Below, piece by piece: positions 1 to 6,997 of a stretch of DNA of 6,997 bases (position 1 is its first letter; every line of letters starts with the position of its first letter). Source of the DNA: Candidatus Aminicenantota bacterium (lineage in GTDB: Bacteria; Acidobacteriota; Aminicenantia; UBA2199); contig CP070627.1 of the NCBI GenBank assembly GCA_020355945.1, positions 8,476,577-8,483,573 of the forward strand, written 5' to 3'. Both the position numbers and the translations under genes were made by a program. A model generated the notes under the pieces. That model saw nothing but the letters and a program-made list of their open reading frames with translations, made no database searches and was not told where the DNA came from.

Positions 1-97
1 AAAGAGGTTCCAGTATTCTCAATATTATGACCCAGGTAAGCCCATAACAGTCTCCCAGAGAAATAATCTGACATTCTTTGAGCAATTTTTTTAGCTA
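1..97. repeat. Terminal direct repeat, left copy (contig closure overlap)
   Basis: These 97 bases are identical, base for base, to 6901-6997. The repeat lies wholly within the STAND coding sequence, just after its second Walker A. Both copies read the same residues (529-559), and joining on the repeat keeps the frame. This is what an assembler leaves when a circular or cyclic sequence is written as a linear contig, and gives a unit length of 6,900 bp. Confidence 0.97.
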
Positions 98-1679
98 ATG
101 CGGTTTTTCCTATTCCTGGGGTACCCCATAATATAACATTTTCTCCCCGACGTAACATTAAGGTTATATCGTTAATTTCTTTACTTCTACCTAAAAAGTT
201 TAGCGGAACAGGAGGGATATTATTCCAGGGTTTGTCTGAAATATTTATTTGCATACCATCATTGGCTAAATACTGGTTTCTCATTCTTTCAACCCGGTCT
301 TTGAAATCTTCATAAATTAAACGCTGGCCTGTAATCACCTTTTCATCTCTATATTTAACCAGCAGGTCTAAATATCGAGGTTTATGAATTAAATGATGCA
401 GCTCACTGGAGAGTTCCGGGATAGTCAAATTATATCTAACCAGTGCTTCATTCAATTCAACGTCATTGTATGGAGGCAAACTCCAATTTTGAATTTCTTT
501 TAGGTGCGTCGATTGAGAAAATCTATCTTGCCAATATTTTGTACGAGAAGTCAGAACCACAGCAATTCTTTTACCCCAGGGATCAGCCTGTGCTTTTTCT
601 AACAGCCACTGCCAATCTAAAGATAGATTTTCATTAATACCATCGATCACTAAAATAATAATGGGTTCATTTGAATGAGGACGGTTCATCCAATTGGTTA
701 TCCTTTTTTCCCAAAACTTAACATCACGTGTCTTTTGCCGAGCGGATATTGCCTCACTTAAAATTTTCTCAATATCAGTTGTTGAAACGTTCCGTGCCGG
801 TAAAAATACAACCGGTATTTTATTGATTTGCTCAATATATATAGTGATCCATGAAGCAACCGCCCAGGTTTTTCCATCACCCTCCTCTCCGGTTAAAACA
901 AATATGTTGTTTTTCACTCCCCATTTGCTCAACCAATTATCCAGTATCTCCAGGGCAGATTTTCTCTCAATGAAAGTGTTCCCCTTGCCATGGATATTAA
1001 TACTCTGTCGGAATGAACTCCTGGAACTGGCTTCAGAACCGAATTGAGCGAATAACCATTTATTTTGCTCTTTGTGCCAACTGTTGAATCCCAGGTGGTG
1101 CTTTGATAATTTTTCTTTTAAAGATGAAAGTTTGCTGTTGTATCCTGGTTTTTCTTTTATTTCAATTAAGTATTTATTTAATTTTTCCAGTCTTTCTGAA
1201 TTGAGTTTCGAATATCTCTTGAAAAATTCAACCACGATATCATCGCCATAAGCACAAAGCGTTTCAACAGAATCAGACTCACTATCGTCAGGTTCAACAA
1301 CAAAAATCTCGACTCCTTTACTACATCCTGATTGATAAAGTCTTTGGGCTAATTGACTGTCTAAGGGTCTGGTAATAACGACAACCCATAAATCAAGGTT
1401 AGGATTGTCCTGGTAAGCAAGTTCCAGCTTACTCAACAAATCGCTTTCTTTAGCACGGGTATTTGGGCTGTAAAGTTTACATTCTACAGCAATGTAATTT
1501 CCTCTAATCCCACTGGTGCTTAAGTCTTTACCGGCTTGATAGCCAGCTTTAGCTATATAAAATCTATCGCCTGTTATTTTTTCCAGTAATTTTGCTATCA
1601 ATCCTTCAAAACCTTCGGAACCTACGGGTCTGAGCACTTTCTTTTTTAAGACAGAACGTAAAAATTTTTCCTGCGTCAT
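1..1679 (-). CDS. Mrr-like nuclease / tandem STAND NTPase / TPR protein, N-terminal part (residues 1-559 of 1470)
   Basis: Seen: an open frame runs from ATG at 1679 off the left edge with no stop; I translated it row by row. Residues 1-130 form a PD-(D/E)XK fold like Mrr nucleases, with candidate catalytic residues D52, E66 and K68 (E-C-K) and a conserved-looking E in SEGFEG near 22-25. A helical, charged linker spans about 150-235. A first P-loop NTPase follows: Walker A GEEGDGKT at 264-271, Walker B ending LVIDGINE at about 343-350, close to the NACHT D-G-x-D-E signature, and a sensor-1-like VVLTSR at 374-379. A second NTPase opens with FLGRSKEI at 495-502 and Walker A GTPGIGKT at 519-526. 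Start choice: AAAGGA lies 7 bases before ATG 1679; the in-frame ATG at 1685 is too close to it. Family knowledge: nuclease-STAND-TPR proteins are ATP-dependent antiviral sensors that cleave DNA on activation. Inference: this is the N-terminal third of a defence protein completed by the 4167-6997 feature. Confidence 0.9.
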   Translation of the reverse strand, partial: MTQEKFLRSVLKKKVLRPVGSEGFEGLIAKLLEKITGDRFYIAKAGYQAGKDLSTSGIRGNYIAVECKLYSPNTRAKESDLLSKLELAYQDNPNLDLWVVVITRPLDSQLAQRLYQSGCSKGVEIFVVEPDDSESDSVETLCAYGDDIVVEFFKRYSKLNSERLEKLNKYLIEIKEKPGYNSKLSSLKEKLSKHHLGFNSWHKEQNKWLFAQFGSEASSRSSFRQSINIHGKGNTFIERKSALEILDNWLSKWGVKNNIFVLTGEEGDGKTWAVASWITIYIEQINKIPVVFLPARNVSTTDIEKILSEAISARQKTRDVKFWEKRITNWMNRPHSNEPIIILVIDGINENLSLDWQWLLEKAQADPWGKRIAVVLTSRTKYWQDRFSQSTHLKEIQNWSLPPYNDVELNEALVRYNLTIPELSSELHHLIHKPRYLDLLVKYRDEKVITGQRLIYEDFKDRVERMRNQYLANDGMQINISDKPWNNIPPVPLNFLGRSKEINDITLMLRRGENVILWGTPGIGKTALAKKIAQRMSDYFSGRLLWAYLGHNIENTGTS

Positions 1680-1686
1680 TATCATT

Positions 1687-1692
1687 TCCTTT
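1687..1692 (-). promoter_or_regulatory. Ribosome binding site that fixes the STAND start
   Basis: AAAGGA on the minus strand ends 7 bases before ATG 1679, which is ideal spacing. An in-frame ATG two codons earlier (1685) would leave only one base of spacing and is disfavoured. It is the only convincing Shine-Dalgarno sequence in the window. Confidence 0.7.
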
Positions 1693-1727
1693 AATCATTA
1701 AGCCATCATTTCTAACTCTGACTCTCT

Positions 1728-1756
1728 TTTATATCTCTTTTTCTCTTTTTCCACAA
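1728..1756 (-). promoter_or_regulatory. Possible sigma-70-type promoter for the STAND gene
   Basis: On the minus strand a TTGTGG (1756-1751) is followed after 17 bases by TATAAA (1733-1728), about 50 bases before the ATG at 1679. The -10 is good and the -35 matches the consensus only in its TTG. The spacer is an unusual purine tract of A and G. If real, it would let the STAND gene be transcribed separately from the ATPase gene. Confidence 0.35.
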
Positions 1757-1801
1757 ACTTTCAATACCAAATGTCTATTTTCTTTTTGGAATTTCTCTCT
1801 T

Positions 1802-1871
1802 GCCTCCGGCGGCCAGGGGGACTCTTTTCGAGAAAACCGCCCCGTGACGCATCTGGACCCCCCGAAAAAGC
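1802..1871. repeat. GC-rich, hairpin-forming intergenic block, possible dispersed repeat
   Basis: By my count 1802-1864 is about 70% G+C, whereas the flanks on both sides are strongly AT-rich. It holds competing inverted pairs: GGCGG (1808-1812) with CCGCC (1837-1841), GGGG in 1816-1820 with CCCC 1840-1843 around a CTC/GAG mini-hairpin (1822-1832), and GGGGG (1816-1820) with the CCCCCC run 1858-1863. No T-run follows on the minus strand, so it is not a standard intrinsic terminator, although structured RNA could still shield the 3' end of the ATPase transcript. Its composition suggests a foreign or dispersed repeat unit. I recall similar blocks between genes in Candidatus Aminicenantes assemblies, from memory only. 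Confidence 0.5.
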
Positions 1872-1916
1872 TTCTTATTATGTTGAAAAAGTTGAAAATA
1901 GTTCGATATTGCCTCA

Positions 1917-1933
1917 AAAAGAATTATTCTTTT
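1917..1933 (-). terminator. Weak AT-only hairpin over the ATPase stop codon
   Basis: AAAAGAAT (1917-1924) and ATTCTTTT (1926-1933) are perfect inverted arms around one base and overlap the TAA stop. Read on the minus strand, the right arm ends in a run of five T. The stem has only two G-C pairs and would be very weak, so termination here is a guess. Confidence 0.22.
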
Positions 1934-3570
1934 AAATATAATTTCCATTCCTCATCGCTTCGGCCAATCCCGATAATAAAACTGGTCACTGTTTTATCTC
2001 CAATCTTGTGGTTTTGCGGTTCACCCCCTTCCCCTACCGGTGTTTTGGTATCATAAATTACCAGGTAACCCCCGGGGCAATGTTCAGAGGTTAGGTATTT
2101 TTCCGATAATTGGGTTATTCCCTGGTCCACCGTCCGGGAAAGATTCTGACGGTTGATCTTGGTCTCTATAATATATCTCCTGCCTTTATAAGTTAACGTG
2201 ATATCCATAATCCCCAGCCCGCTCATCACTTCATACCGCAGCTCTCCTTCTCCACTACGGACAAACTGGTAAAGCCAGGCTGTCAGCAGGAATTGACCGG
2301 TTTTCTCATAAGGTTTTTTCTCTTTATAAAATGCCCTTACCCCAATTTGCGCAATGTACTGCTCAAAATCCAGGAGAATTTTCTCCATGTCCAATCTATT
2401 ACCGGGCAATTCATATCTTGCCCTGGAAATATCTTCCGGTACTTCAGTCTCACTGAAAAATGTCTCAACAAATCTCTCTTTATAAATGTTATTGGCCACC
2501 ACCGCTGTTTTTTCTTTTCTCTTTATCAATCCGTACTGCTCCAACCAGGACTGCTCTTTATCGTTGGGTCTATATTTAACATGATCAAACACAATCTTAA
2601 CAAAGGTTTCTTTATACAGTACGGCCTTTTCATAAAGATTGTCAAAGTGGTCGTTTTTCTCTAACAGGAGAATTTCAATGGCTTTTTCCACATCGTTTGG
2701 GTTGATGGGCTCCGTAGTTCCCGGTTTTACATCCAGGGTAAGGATAGACCCCAACCGGTTCACCAGCCAGGGTTGACCTTCGGTTTCGTCATAAATTTTT
2801 TTTATGGCTTCGTCGGTAAAAGGTTGATTGGTTTCTTCGGTATATTGAGAGTATAGATCGCGCACATTCTTTAAAGAAAAAGGCGGCATTTCCACCTGGT
2901 CCGCAATATTAAAGGGAGATACACCTCCCACAATGAGCTTGGTTATATTCCTGATGCCAATCAATCCAATGGAATAAAGAGCTTTCTCTCTTATTTTTTT
3001 ATATTTTATATATAATCCCCTCAAGGTGGTAAGAAAATTCTCTAATTCGTCTATAGGAATCCCGTCAAACTCATCAATGAAGATGACAATCTTTTTATAT
3101 TGGATGATCTTGTTTAATTTTTCAAACAACAACCTGAAGGAAATATGATTGGTGAGATGATGATTGTTTAAAAACCGGACAACTTCTTCGATTTTTTCAC
3201 AGCGCACCTCTTTTAACCTGTTAGTCAACTGTTCATAAAGTTCCATCTCCATTAATGAGTAAAACTCTGTTTTGTTTAGATTTTTATTGTCCTGTAAACT
3301 TAATATGACAACCGCATAGGTGGGATCGCCGTGCAATTGGCGGCAAAGTTCTTCCAGGAATGTTGTTTTTCCGCTCTGCCTGGGGGCAAATATAGAAAAA
3401 TACCTGCCCCGGTCTACCATGGTCTTAATGTCTTGCTTTTTGGTATTGATCACGTTGTCCAGGTGAACATAATAAGCCTCTTCAGCGTCTACCGTACCTG
3501 AATCCTCGAAAATTCGTTTGGGCTTTCGATACTTTTTCTCGTTTATATCCGCTGCTTTTTCATCTACCAA
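1924..3570 (-). CDS. AAA-like ATPase with C-terminal PD-(D/E)XK nuclease domain
   Basis: 548 aa. Seen: the N-terminus carries the IFEDSGTVDAEEAYYV stretch (20-34) typical of AAA-like (AAA_35-type) proteins. Walker A is APRQSGKT (62-69), with A in place of the first G; Walker B is IVIFIDEFD (161-169); the TEGQPWLVNRL block (263-273) is a family hallmark. A winged-helix-like region follows. The C-terminus (about 425-510) is a PD-(D/E)XK nuclease domain with D456, E469 and K471 (E-T-K) preceded by acidic residues at E441 and E443, then a QxxxY-like helix and GGYLVIYD. The family resembles the ATPase-nuclease proteins abundant in Bacteroidota and uncultured phyla; their physiological role is unsettled, with defence or mobile-element functions suspected. 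The start is TTG 3570, the only usable start: an in-frame TGA lies a few codons upstream, and the first in-frame ATG (Met51) would cut into the ATPase domain. There is no convincing ribosome binding site, and the 11-base overlap suggests translation coupled to the upstream gene. Cytoplasmic. Confidence 0.88.
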   Translation of the reverse strand: MVDEKAADINEKKYRKPKRIFEDSGTVDAEEAYYVHLDNVINTKKQDIKTMVDRGRYFSIFAPRQSGKTTFLEELCRQLHGDPTYAVVILSLQDNKNLNKTEFYSLMEMELYEQLTNRLKEVRCEKIEEVVRFLNNHHLTNHISFRLLFEKLNKIIQYKKIVIFIDEFDGIPIDELENFLTTLRGLYIKYKKIREKALYSIGLIGIRNITKLIVGGVSPFNIADQVEMPPFSLKNVRDLYSQYTEETNQPFTDEAIKKIYDETEGQPWLVNRLGSILTLDVKPGTTEPINPNDVEKAIEILLLEKNDHFDNLYEKAVLYKETFVKIVFDHVKYRPNDKEQSWLEQYGLIKRKEKTAVVANNIYKERFVETFFSETEVPEDISRARYELPGNRLDMEKILLDFEQYIAQIGVRAFYKEKKPYEKTGQFLLTAWLYQFVRSGEGELRYEVMSGLGIMDITLTYKGRRYIIETKINRQNLSRTVDQGITQLSEKYLTSEHCPGGYLVIYDTKTPVGEGGEPQNHKIGDKTVTSFIIGIGRSDEEWKLYLKE

Positions 3571-4015
3571 CAGTCTTTTTCAACGGGTCAACGGTTCGTT
3601 TATTTTTATGGTCTAAAATGCAGAAGATATAAATGTCGGCTTGTCTTTTAATTTCTTCTGAGTATTTATTTGTATCCGCATACCAACCTTTTGTGGGAGC
3701 AATTCTAAATTGTATGTCAGAAAGTTTTTCTTGTTTCCAGCTTTGTAAATAGGCCGCGGATTTGATTTCTATTTTGAGCCCTTTTTTGGTTTTAAAGTCA
3801 TCGGCATCCCATTCGGTTCTGGCGTCCATATCCAATTCCAGTGCCGCAGCAACAATAAATTCTGCCAGCACTCCCCTGGTGGCATTGCTTAATAAGTCAG
3901 CCTGTGACCACTGCCAGAAATCCACCAGTTTTAAATTGACCGGAGAACCGCCAAAAATAAAATTTTCTTGCCCGGTTTTTCTTCGGACTTTTATCGCATC
4001 TAATTTTTCTTTCAT
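3560..4015 (-). CDS. Small PD-(D/E)XK nuclease-like protein, C-terminally truncated
   Basis: 151 aa from ATG 4015; a TTG at 4030 would add five residues but has no ribosome binding site, and the family usually begins close to the LDAIKVRRK stretch. Seen: GSPVNLKLVDFWQWS (23-37), SNATRGVLAEFIVA (43-56), WDADDF (69-74), then KIEIKSAAYLQSW (81-93), in which E83 and K85 form an E-x-K nuclease core with D70 or D72/D73 as metal ligand. RQADIYIFCILDH (124-136) supplies the last core strand. I recognise a widespread uncharacterised family in which the text after TVDPL continues with a QWEFYVLPT-like block for some 40 more residues. Here it breaks into KKTVGR and stops, and the missing block is absent from the other frames too. 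It may therefore be a 3'-truncated remnant or a shortened but working protein. Its stop overlaps the start of the ATPase gene by 11 bases. Function unknown; nuclease activity is inferred only from the motif. Confidence 0.75.
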   Translation of the reverse strand: MKEKLDAIKVRRKTGQENFIFGGSPVNLKLVDFWQWSQADLLSNATRGVLAEFIVAAALELDMDARTEWDADDFKTKKGLKIEIKSAAYLQSWKQEKLSDIQFRIAPTKGWYADTNKYSEEIKRQADIYIFCILDHKNKRTVDPLKKTVGR

Positions 4016-4020
4016 CCTGT

Positions 4021-4049
4021 ATTGTACCAAAATGCCGAATAAAAAACCA
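4021..4049 (-). promoter_or_regulatory. Possible promoter giving a near-leaderless transcript of the small nuclease gene
   Basis: A -10-like TACAAT (4026-4021, minus strand) ends five bases before ATG 4015. The hexamer 17 bases upstream is TGGTTT, a poor -35. Transcription from it would start at or next to the ATG, which fits the lack of a usable ribosome binding site. The weak -35 keeps confidence low. Confidence 0.25.
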
Positions 4050-4075
4050 GCCTAAATTGGCATTCACTGGCATTC
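4031..4075 (-). promoter_or_regulatory. Operator-like direct and inverted repeats upstream of the small nuclease gene
   Basis: On the minus strand GAATGCCA occurs twice (4075-4068 and 4065-4058), 10 bases apart centre to centre, about one helical turn. A reversed half-site GGCATT follows at 4036-4031, next to the possible -10. This arrangement suits a repressor or activator that binds same-face half-sites. No transcription factor is encoded in the window, so any binder would come from elsewhere. Confidence 0.35.
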
Positions 4076-4166
4076 CCCCCAGTTTAGTTATTCCTTTTTT
4101 GCAGAAAATAAGAAAAGGTTAAAAATTCAAAATAGCTCAAAAGGATGTGGGCAAATGCAAAAAAAG
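4076..4166. other. AT-rich spacer after the STAND gene; no gene seen
   Basis: The minus strand has a T7 run (4165-4159) directly after the STAND stop, preceded by a tight AGAAAG/CTTTCT palindrome inside the last codons. A second weak pair, CCTTTT/AAAAGG (4093-4098 with 4113-4118), lies further on. Neither makes a strong intrinsic terminator, so read-through into the small nuclease gene is possible. I see no open frame of note or RNA gene here. Confidence 0.4.
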
Positions 4167-6997
4167 TCATTTAGAAAGCCTTTCTTTTTCTTTTAAAAGT
4201 CGAATCATCACAGGAGACTCATTATCGCAGATTTCAATAGCTTCATCTAACAGTTGATTTGCATATATAGGATTATACAAAAGACTCAAATTATACAACT
4301 GATTAGCCTCTGAGTCTCTGTCTCCAAGCTTTTGATATATTTTTCTTGCCTCACGGTGACACTTCCTGGCCTCCCTCAGCATTTTTGGTGAATTTTTGAA
4401 AGAATCATGATAATAATATGCCAAACCTATATTATTTAAAATGGTTGCCTTAAGCCTTCTTCTTCGAACTTCCTCTTGATCCTTTGCGGATTTATTTAGG
4501 GCATTCTTGGCCTTCTTATAAAATCTGAGCGCAATTTCCGCTTGATTTGAAATTCGATAATATACGCCCAATGTATTTAATATTTGTGCTTCTGCTATAT
4601 GATTCCCCAATTTCTGAAAAATTGACAACGCCGGTTCCAGATAATATTTTGTTTTATCCCAGTTTCCTGTTTGCTGATATGTATATCCAATAGCACTAAA
4701 AATTAAAGCCTTTTGTTTTTCGTCAATGTTTTCTATACCACGGATTAGCATCGACTCGAAGATTTTATAGAAATCCTCTTGTTTATTTTGACTTTTATGA
4801 ACTTCATAGAGCCTATAAAATGCATTCGCTGCATCTTGAAAATTTTCCACGGCAACCCATGAAGAAGCCGCCTGCTTCAAATATTTTGCCGCCTCTACCT
4901 TCTGGTTCGTTAACTCATGATAAATAGCCATGTTCATAGAGGTCTCTGCCTGGCCATGTAAATCTCCGGCAGCACTTCTTACATCCAGAGATAATTCAAG
5001 AAATTCTTTAGCCTTCTCTAAGTCTAAATTATCTTTCGATTTCAAGTATTTGTATATGTAGGTCTTCCCGAGATTATTAAATGTTGAGCCTTCACTAATG
5101 CGAACTTTATATTCCTGTTGAATCGACAGGGCTTTTTCCAGATACTCAATTGCCTTTTCAAAATCACCATTATGAAAACAAACCTCAGCCAACCCGTTTA
5201 GCGTATGAGATTCTCCTTTAACATCATTGGCAGCACGCCTTAATTCCAATGCCCGCTCATATACCGATAATGCTTCATGTAATTGGTATCTATGCACATA
5301 AACATTGCCTAGCTGATACAGTATTGTCCCTTCTAGAAGTTTTTCGCCTTTTCCTTCGATTAACCTGAGGGCTTCCTGAAAATATGAAATTGCTTGATCA
5401 TACTCATTCATACGTGAATAGCAAACACCGATTCCATTAAGAATACCAGCTTCGTATGATGTTTCTTCTTTTAAATCACGGGCTAATGATAAGGCATCTT
5501 TAAAATACTCAAGGGCTCTATGATATTTGCCAATGTTAATTAGGTTTAATCCAATGTTTTGAACACTTCCTAATCTATATTCTGGAAATGCCTGGTCAGC
5601 AGACATTGTAGATAATGCCATAGTATAGTTGGAAACTTCATCCATTCGGCATTCCCATCTATGCCAATCTGTCAATAATTGCAAAAAATAAAATTCATCT
5701 GATTCTTTTTTCAGCAAACGAGAGGCTGCTAACCCCAGAGATATCCACTCTTTTCCTGTTTCCCCCAAATGCCAGATTTTAATGATATCGGATAAATTTT
5801 GGGTAAAATCCACAGCTATATTAAAACAATCTCTTTCTTTCTCATCAAAATCAGTAGGCAAGGTAGATGGAGATACAGGTTTTGAAAGTGTCTCAATTGA
5901 AAGCCTATTGTCTTTCTTTCTTAGATATTTGTTGATGTAGTTGAAAAGCATGGATCCTAATGCATAAATGTGTGGTAATTCTGCTTCGATTTTTTCATCC
6001 CACTTTTCAGGTGATAATGCGCCAATTTTATAAACAATACCCAACACTTGTCCAAAATATCTATTTTTAGCATTACTGTAGACGTCATTTTTTTCATCAC
6101 TTTGGCGAATCAAAAGGGCTGTGGCATAATAATGCAATATTGTATGTAATTGATAACGACCGGCTTCTGTACGTTCAACAAGTGCAGTTTTTTCCAATTC
6201 TCTTAATTCCTCTTTTTTTCTCTTCAACAAACTTTGGTCCTCGATATCAACTCCCCATAAATCTAATGCCATTTCATTTGAAAAATCTAAACCCTTTGGA
6301 ATAGCTGACAGTAAGCGGAATTGCCTCTTTTGTTCGTCATCCAATGGCAAATAACTTAAAGAAAGTGCTTTTTCCAGGTTGCTATCACGATCGTCCTCTA
6401 ATTCTAATTCAGCAAATGGATTCTTCAAATCCGCCTCTTCAAGTAGTTTTAAAAGTTCTGGCGTGTCATGGATGCTGTTTTGAACTAACCAGGCATTTGC
6501 CAGTACGAGTGCCAATGGATGGTGACCTAAAAGGACGGCCACCTTTTTTAGTTCCGCTGAGTATCTTTCAGGGCCATCGAGGTTTACAGTCAGTAATTCC
6601 AGGGAATTATCGGAATTCAGGTTGCCAATTTCATACAAACGTCTATTGGGAATCGACGGGGTACAAATATCTCTTTCTCGAGTTGTAATAAGCAAAACTA
6701 TTTTGTTCAAAGGGAGTATTTTTTTAAATTCATTTAATAAATTAATATCCCAAACATCATCGACAATGATTAACGTCTTTCCATCCACCAAATTAAGCCA
6801 ATGCCTGATCAATTGAGAGTTCACATTCTCCTGCCTAATATTTTTCCCATTGGGGTGGGCTGCCGCCCAATCATTCCAAATGAGTTGGAAAGATGATTCG
6901 AAAGAGGTTCCAGTATTCTCAATATTATGACCCAGGTAAGCCCATAACAGTCTCCCAGAGAAATAATCTGACATTCTTTGAGCAATTTTTTTAGCTA
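4167..6997 (-). CDS. Same STAND gene, C-terminal part: NB-ARC core, winged-helix region and TPR repeats (residues 529-1470)
   Basis: Seen: the frame is open at the right edge and ends at TGA 4169-4167. Its first 31 residues repeat the end of the 1-1679 part, and joining them in frame gives 1,470 aa. Numbered on the joined protein: NB-ARC Walker B TLIIVDDVWD at 602-611, sensor-1-like LLITTR at 629-634, GLPL-like GHHPLAL at 685-691, then a helical or winged-helix region with an MHD-like LH at 811-812. A less clear helical stretch runs to about 1000. From there to about 1440 there are roughly ten TPR-type helical hairpins of about 40 residues, with the usual spacing of A, Y, A and L (for example YDQAISYFQEALRL). 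No signal peptide or membrane segment is visible, so it should act in the cytoplasm. Known family role: the TPRs sense a ligand, NB-ARC oligomerises, and the N-terminal effector fires. The first Met in this part (6974) is internal, between Walker A and Walker B, not a start. Confidence 0.9.
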   Translation of the reverse strand, partial: AKKIAQRMSDYFSGRLLWAYLGHNIENTGTSFESSFQLIWNDWAAAHPNGKNIRQENVNSQLIRHWLNLVDGKTLIIVDDVWDINLLNEFKKILPLNKIVLLITTRERDICTPSIPNRRLYEIGNLNSDNSLELLTVNLDGPERYSAELKKVAVLLGHHPLALVLANAWLVQNSIHDTPELLKLLEEADLKNPFAELELEDDRDSNLEKALSLSYLPLDDEQKRQFRLLSAIPKGLDFSNEMALDLWGVDIEDQSLLKRKKEELRELEKTALVERTEAGRYQLHTILHYYATALLIRQSDEKNDVYSNAKNRYFGQVLGIVYKIGALSPEKWDEKIEAELPHIYALGSMLFNYINKYLRKKDNRLSIETLSKPVSPSTLPTDFDEKERDCFNIAVDFTQNLSDIIKIWHLGETGKEWISLGLAASRLLKKESDEFYFLQLLTDWHRWECRMDEVSNYTMALSTMSADQAFPEYRLGSVQNIGLNLINIGKYHRALEYFKDALSLARDLKEETSYEAGILNGIGVCYSRMNEYDQAISYFQEALRLIEGKGEKLLEGTILYQLGNVYVHRYQLHEALSVYERALELRRAANDVKGESHTLNGLAEVCFHNGDFEKAIEYLEKALSIQQEYKVRISEGSTFNNLGKTYIYKYLKSKDNLDLEKAKEFLELSLDVRSAAGDLHGQAETSMNMAIYHELTNQKVEAAKYLKQAASSWVAVENFQDAANAFYRLYEVHKSQNKQEDFYKIFESMLIRGIENIDEKQKALIFSAIGYTYQQTGNWDKTKYYLEPALSIFQKLGNHIAEAQILNTLGVYYRISNQAEIALRFYKKAKNALNKSAKDQEEVRRRRLKATILNNIGLAYYYHDSFKNSPKMLREARKCHREARKIYQKLGDRDSEANQLYNLSLLYNPIYANQLLDEAIEICDNESPVMIRLLKEKERLSK
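6901..6997. repeat. Terminal direct repeat, right copy (contig closure overlap)
   Basis: Exact copy of bases 1-97. One copy is redundant when the unit is counted. The identity runs to the last base of the window, so a longer true overlap cannot be excluded. Confidence 0.97.

Follow-up and report, generated by a model that had tools for sequence, protein, structure and literature searches.

Gene Content of the Contig

The window analysed here is the whole 6,997-nucleotide stretch of contig CP070627.1 from Candidatus Aminicenantota. Its bases 1-97 are identical to bases 6901-6997, and closure through this overlap gives a circle of 6,900 bp. Read round the circle, the largest gene has 1,472 codons without an internal stop and encodes a STAND protein; this gene and two others, ORF548 and ORF156, all lie on the minus strand. 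The features, with the evidence for each, are as follows.

1-97, no strand: terminal overlap, 97 bp, exact (identity with 6901-6997; the frame stays open across it)
1-1685, minus: STAND gene, first stretch, residues 1-561 of 1,472 (ORF 3-1685, open at the contig end)
1212-1685, minus: nuclease domain, PD-(D/E)XK-like (D54, E68, K70), residues 1-158 (conservation, structure model, Avs4 match)
252-1004, minus: NTPase 1, NACHT-like plus helical domain, residues 228-478 (Walker A 867-890, Walker B 630-656; conservation, model, Avs4 match)
249-254, minus: join J1, where the match to the family stops, at M478 (252-254) (alignments with relatives)
3-251, minus: start of NB-ARC including the second Walker A (102-125), residues 479-561 (ORF, Pfam, motifs)
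1801-1891, no strand: dispersed intergenic repeat of Aminicenantes genomes (genome search)
1924-3570, minus: ORF548, AAA_35-type ATPase, multi-copy in Aminicenantes genomes (Pfam, genome search)
3562-3578, minus: join J2, where ORF156, cut at its 3' end, meets ORF548, which lacks promoter and ATG (comparison with relatives)
3560-4030, minus: ORF156, truncated (relatives continue after VDPL)
4167-6997, minus: STAND gene, second stretch, residues 531-1472 and stop (ORF 4167-6995, open at the contig end; joined frame)
6123-6995, minus: rest of NB-ARC and winged-helix region to YQLHTILHYYA, residues 531-821 (Walker B 6747-6773; Pfam NB-ARC, model, motifs)
5586-6122, minus: helical arm, residues 822-1000 (structure model)
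4170-5585, minus: TPR superhelix, residues 1001-1472 (Pfam TPR_12, seven stretches; model)

Both Walker A motifs lie on one uninterrupted ORF (3-1685, minus strand), so the tandem P-loops are independent of the circle, and what an earlier note had described, a NACHT-like followed by an NB-ARC P-loop in a single polypeptide, is borne out. The full order that it gave (nuclease, NACHT-like NTPase, NB-ARC, TPR) is also present in the assembled sequence; here it is the 97-bp overlap that connects the second Walker A with its Walker B and the TPRs, and the joined protein of 1,472 aa depends on it. We infer that the closure of the contig is faithful and hence that the two stretches encode one protein.

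No replication or virion gene was found among the ORFs and Pfam matches of the circle, and a plasmid or virus origin was rejected on this ground. No RNA family reached its gathering score in the window, and the only exact direct repeat of at least 14 bases is a single 14-mer distant from both joins. A 97-bp overlap is the expected leftover of assembly with k near 97; a related locus (L013) sits on a contig named H2_k97. One database protein (P0121) is the window's own 942-aa piece; it stops exactly at the window edge, although its longest contig is entered in the protein database as 9,131,798. Two abrupt joins lie on the circle, J1 within the STAND gene and J2 at 3562-3578. A single-segment circle requires one closure, and either join could be it.

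The N-Terminal Module Belongs to an Unnamed Nuclease-STAND Family

Residues 1-478 (the N-module) carry the nuclease and NTPase typical of an unnamed nuclease-STAND family, the P0001 family, of which they are a member. The family search found 138 proteins, the best 120 of which were listed, and its scoring covered the 7,984 candidates sharing most words. The closest among the matches listed is P0001 (1,470 aa; 85% identity over 86% of the searched 560 residues), and the N-module is 83% identical to P0002 (1,472 aa) from a Candidatus Aminicenantes MAG. D54, E68, and K70 are each conserved in at least 90% of 50 sequences, and the NTPase domain of module 1 retains Walker A and Walker B together with R381 and P436-R437. 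Of 56 conserved positions, two differ in the N-module; 110 relatives average 1.05 such changes, and 24 of them have two or more. One of the two changes in the N-module is a four-residue gap near J1, which takes out an Asp that at least 95% of relatives retain. Judged from its sequence, the N-module does not appear visibly decayed.

The family has a C-terminal half of its own, matched in 120 of the 120 listed relatives; a relative counts as matching if it hits one or more of six queries, each taken from a different one of these 120 proteins. Some of the 120 are short, as happens at contig ends. Four of the 120 have a second G-x4-GK[ST] string, in none of them followed by a match to the C-module, and no NB-ARC or TPR stands in the precomputed Pfam column of these relatives, a column that is empty for most rows. 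Among five distant members scanned, EAD10 in two and EAD8 in one replace the nuclease, and these three cases indicate that the family swaps effectors at its N-terminal end. P0001 and four relatives (5/5 scanned) have no NCBIfam match. Taken as a whole (P0001-P0120), this is a widespread nuclease (or EAD8/EAD10)-STAND family with a C-terminal half of ~1,000 aa, found in Aminicenantes, cyanobacteria, Desulfobacterota, and others, and its members are in their own right candidate nuclease STANDs. In Sphingobium, a plasmid relative adjoins a VapC-type toxin gene and an AAA-RloB pair, a neighbourhood that fits a defence role of the family. Beside an Aminicenantes member, at 9423-12638 (minus strand) of locus L001, lies a gene for a 1,071-aa protein that by eye is DNA methyltransferase-like and would fit a defence island.

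An NB-ARC-TPR Module Follows an Abrupt, In-Frame Join

At J1 the family resemblance stops. BLAST matches to the query end at or before residue 506 in all 120 listed relatives, mostly at 465-490, and the alignment with P0001 and P0002 runs to YLANDGM (YLTNDVM in theirs) and no further, M478 being common to all three proteins. The join is in frame and abrupt, with the NB-ARC motif NFLGRSKE starting at residue 496. The family's C-terminal half is absent after residue ~480, and a search with the C-terminal halves of three relatives found no convincing remains of it in the window (best E 0.28). As read from the alignment, the winged-helix region of the relatives would begin at about residue 478, and module 1 probably has neither a winged helix nor a sensor of its own. 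The notion of two complete modules therefore survives for the P-loops and NTP-binding motifs, which are intact in both, and fails for module 1, which lacks the family's C-terminal half.

Module 2 has the layout of a STAND protein, an NB-ARC domain above the Pfam cut-off (34.3 bits versus 23.5) followed by TPRs (TPR_12, 182.2 bits versus 30.1). The NB-ARC motifs, read by eye, are retained, and the structure model of the C-module matches Apaf-1 and NRC1. Sequence relatives are distant: a search with the NB-ARC listed 28 proteins besides the window's own (23-28% identity), and one with residues 690-1080 listed 50 (23-41% identity, mostly over 15-43% of the stretch). Both searches scored roughly 8,000 candidates sharing most words, so that closer relatives with few shared words are possible. 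At E 1e-3 or better, none of these 78 C-module relatives has the nuclease-NTPase N-module; one of them, P0128, has two NTPases, a KAP-type NTPase and then NB-ARC.

J1 as the natural start of an NB-ARC protein is a weak candidate, because M478 is native to the N-module and only two of the 78 C-module relatives (P0162 and P0194) start as near to their NB-ARC. The rarity of such near starts also slightly lowers the odds of a clean fusion, and the NB-ARC gene may have lost its own N terminus too. GC3 is similar in the two halves (0.34-0.35 versus 0.31-0.34; ORF548, 0.45), and 3 of 49 control ORFs, which include ORF548 copies and possibly spurious frames, are as close in codon use to the N-part as the NB-ARC part is. 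This agreement is weak support for a fusion at J1.

The Fusion Was Seen Once

None of the collections searched yielded a second copy of the fusion. Neither a protein search nor an exact 34-mer across J1 found it in viral_contigs, and phages held none. In plasmids, 12 records match the N-part, and in 12 of 12 the match ends at query residue 490 or earlier. A single-protein search of genome_contigs had no match; a family-alignment search there gave 14 loci; in each, the match to P0001 extends into the C-terminal half of that protein (residue 1120 or beyond), and none is a fusion. Among 142 Aminicenantes-class genomes, the N-module was matched in one and the NB-ARC part, at 33% identity, in a different one.

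The order nuclease-NTPase-NB-ARC-TPR occurs in none of the 120 listed N-module relatives, and the relatives listed for either module include none that keeps both P-loop modules. The nuclease-NACHT-NB-ARC-TPR order appeared in no title or abstract found in a literature search that left subscription papers mostly outside. On this point the earlier note has partial support; two NTPases in one chain do occur elsewhere, in P0128 (1 of 78).

J2 Joins Two Damaged Genes

ORF156 ends six residues past VDPL, where a relative at L067 continues for 57, a loss of about 50 C-terminal residues. ORF548 belongs to a family present in at least 35 copies (62-77% identity) across four large Aminicenantes genomes, a count based on the best 10 per genome scored, of 73-111 candidates. 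In 18 distinct copies of this family TTGACAAA lies shortly upstream of the start; the ORF548 of the window has lost both this stretch and its ATG. By eye, its C-terminal part resembles a PD-(D/E)XK nuclease. Of the family's copies (loci L035-L038 and L049-L066), several are cut or carry stop codons and many lie near contig ends; the family looks like a mobile or selfish gene. The repeat at 1801-1891 is GC-rich and has at least 40-41 matches in each of the four large genomes and five in a fifth, the best 40 per genome having been scored, of 179-671 candidates.

J2 is out of frame and cuts two genes, and at J1 the frame is kept and neither module loses its motifs. On this difference we hold J2 to be the likelier closure of the circle and J1 the likelier natural join, by little more than two to one.

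A Nuclease Half under a Borrowed Receptor?

The best explanation, put forward tentatively and at just under an even chance, is that a gene fusion specific to this lineage joined, in frame, residues 1-478 of a nuclease-STAND protein whose predicted fold is Avs4-like to an NB-ARC-TPR protein; the NB-ARC-TPR part would sense and switch, and the nuclease half would act. The fusion protein's one sensor, the TPRs, adjoins the NB-ARC. Read most simply, NB-ARC-TPR does the switching, with the nuclease and NTPase 1 as its output. Binding of an invader ligand by the TPRs would let the NB-ARC take up ATP and oligomerise, and this oligomerisation would bring the nuclease domains together to cut DNA. NTPase 1, without its winged-helix and sensor region, would have lost the usual self-restraint of STAND proteins and may serve the output by helping to cluster the nuclease. 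Against the fusion stand its single occurrence, the second abrupt join, the Asp lost near J1, and the possible loss of the NB-ARC N terminus.

The main competitor is that J1 is the closing point of a linear piece, whether assembly, amplification, or recombination closed it, and that the fusion of two unrelated genes is only apparent. The overlap is exact, as from a de Bruijn assembly with k near 97, the circle has no replication gene, and J1 and J2 are alike: at each, a gene truncated at the 3' end runs into another close to the latter's start. ORF548 is a repeat-family member, the fusion is missing from all 120 listed relatives, and the C-module has its one 33% match in the class genomes. We rate such an artefact as less likely than the fusion and as a serious possibility. 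J1 is in frame near a domain border and preserves both NTP-binding motifs, whereas J2, out of frame and damaging to both of its genes, fits better as the closure; GC3 and codon use agree between the halves, and exact direct repeats of at least 14 bases are absent save for the 14-mer far from the joins. The gene may instead be a natural, non-functional remnant: a deletion would have joined the 5' part of a nuclease-STAND gene to an NB-ARC-TPR gene lying downstream, and the N-part would now be on the way to loss. The locus is indeed rearranged, with ORF156 and ORF548 both truncated, and the gap near J1 takes out a conserved Asp; the 1,472 codons, open throughout, and the mere 2 of 56 conserved positions altered make this improbable.

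The two-stage switch suggested by the earlier note, with both NTPases cycling and one gating the other or two inputs acting on one nuclease, draws no direct support from these results. The NTP-binding sites of both modules look intact, P0128 combines two NTPases in a single chain, and for conflict systems PMC8195603 proposes pairs of STANDs carried by separate proteins, the NTP-binding motifs of one partner being eroded. Module 1, however, lacks the C-terminal half found in all 120 listed relatives and so probably a winged helix and sensor, the fusion was seen once at a locus with two abrupt joins, and no relative retains both modules; we regard this reading as very improbable.

Returning to the fusion, its most far-reaching form would be a defence protein that combines two STAND switches in a single chain, with an Avs4-like nuclease-NTPase, its own sensor lost, under the command of an NB-ARC-TPR receptor. 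This would be a natural receptor swap, with Avs effector halves portable between STAND classes, and we think it possible and rather unlikely. If real, it would mean that a receptor from a different class of STAND can drive an Avs-type nuclease-NTPase half, and single-residue variants of one protein could then be used to test which of the two NTPases holds the on-switch.

Comparison with Known Systems

In a STAND protein the effector occupies the N terminus, the NTPase the middle, and the sensor the C terminus; when Avs1-Avs4 recognise phage proteins, their nuclease effectors cleave the DNA of phage and host alike, and the proteins kill (PMC12931631). The NB-ARC-TPR STANDs (AfsR/SARP regulators, Apaf-1-like proteins) share with the window protein the order of NB-ARC, winged-helix region, and TPRs, at 23-28% identity in the NB-ARC search; unlike it, none of the 78 relatives has the nuclease-NTPase N-module at E 1e-3. 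P0128 is likewise a single chain with two P-loop NTPases, of which the second is an NB-ARC, but its first NTPase is of another family and it has no nuclease and no TPR match at E 1e-3. The P0001 family resembles residues 1-478 throughout (nuclease, helical linker, NTPase, and helical domain) and differs in having its own C-terminal half, in 120 of the 120 listed, where the window protein has NB-ARC-TPR.

A sequence profile found nothing convincing in the PDB. Avs4 was rejected by sequence (NCBIfam, 47.6 bits versus a cut-off of 1500; the match was gone with the N-module alone), and PADLOC gave a weak Avs2 match of 19.9 bits in P0008 only (one of five relatives scanned). Avs4 recognises phage portal protein. 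In Foldseek, Avs4 (AVAST type 4; PDB 8dgf) is the top PDB match of the N-module model, over residues 7-451, and the model predicts an Avs4-type fold, with an N-terminal nuclease and a STAND NTPase. The rmsd of 17.5 Å indicates a domain arrangement different from that of Avs4, whose C-terminal half is replaced in the window protein.
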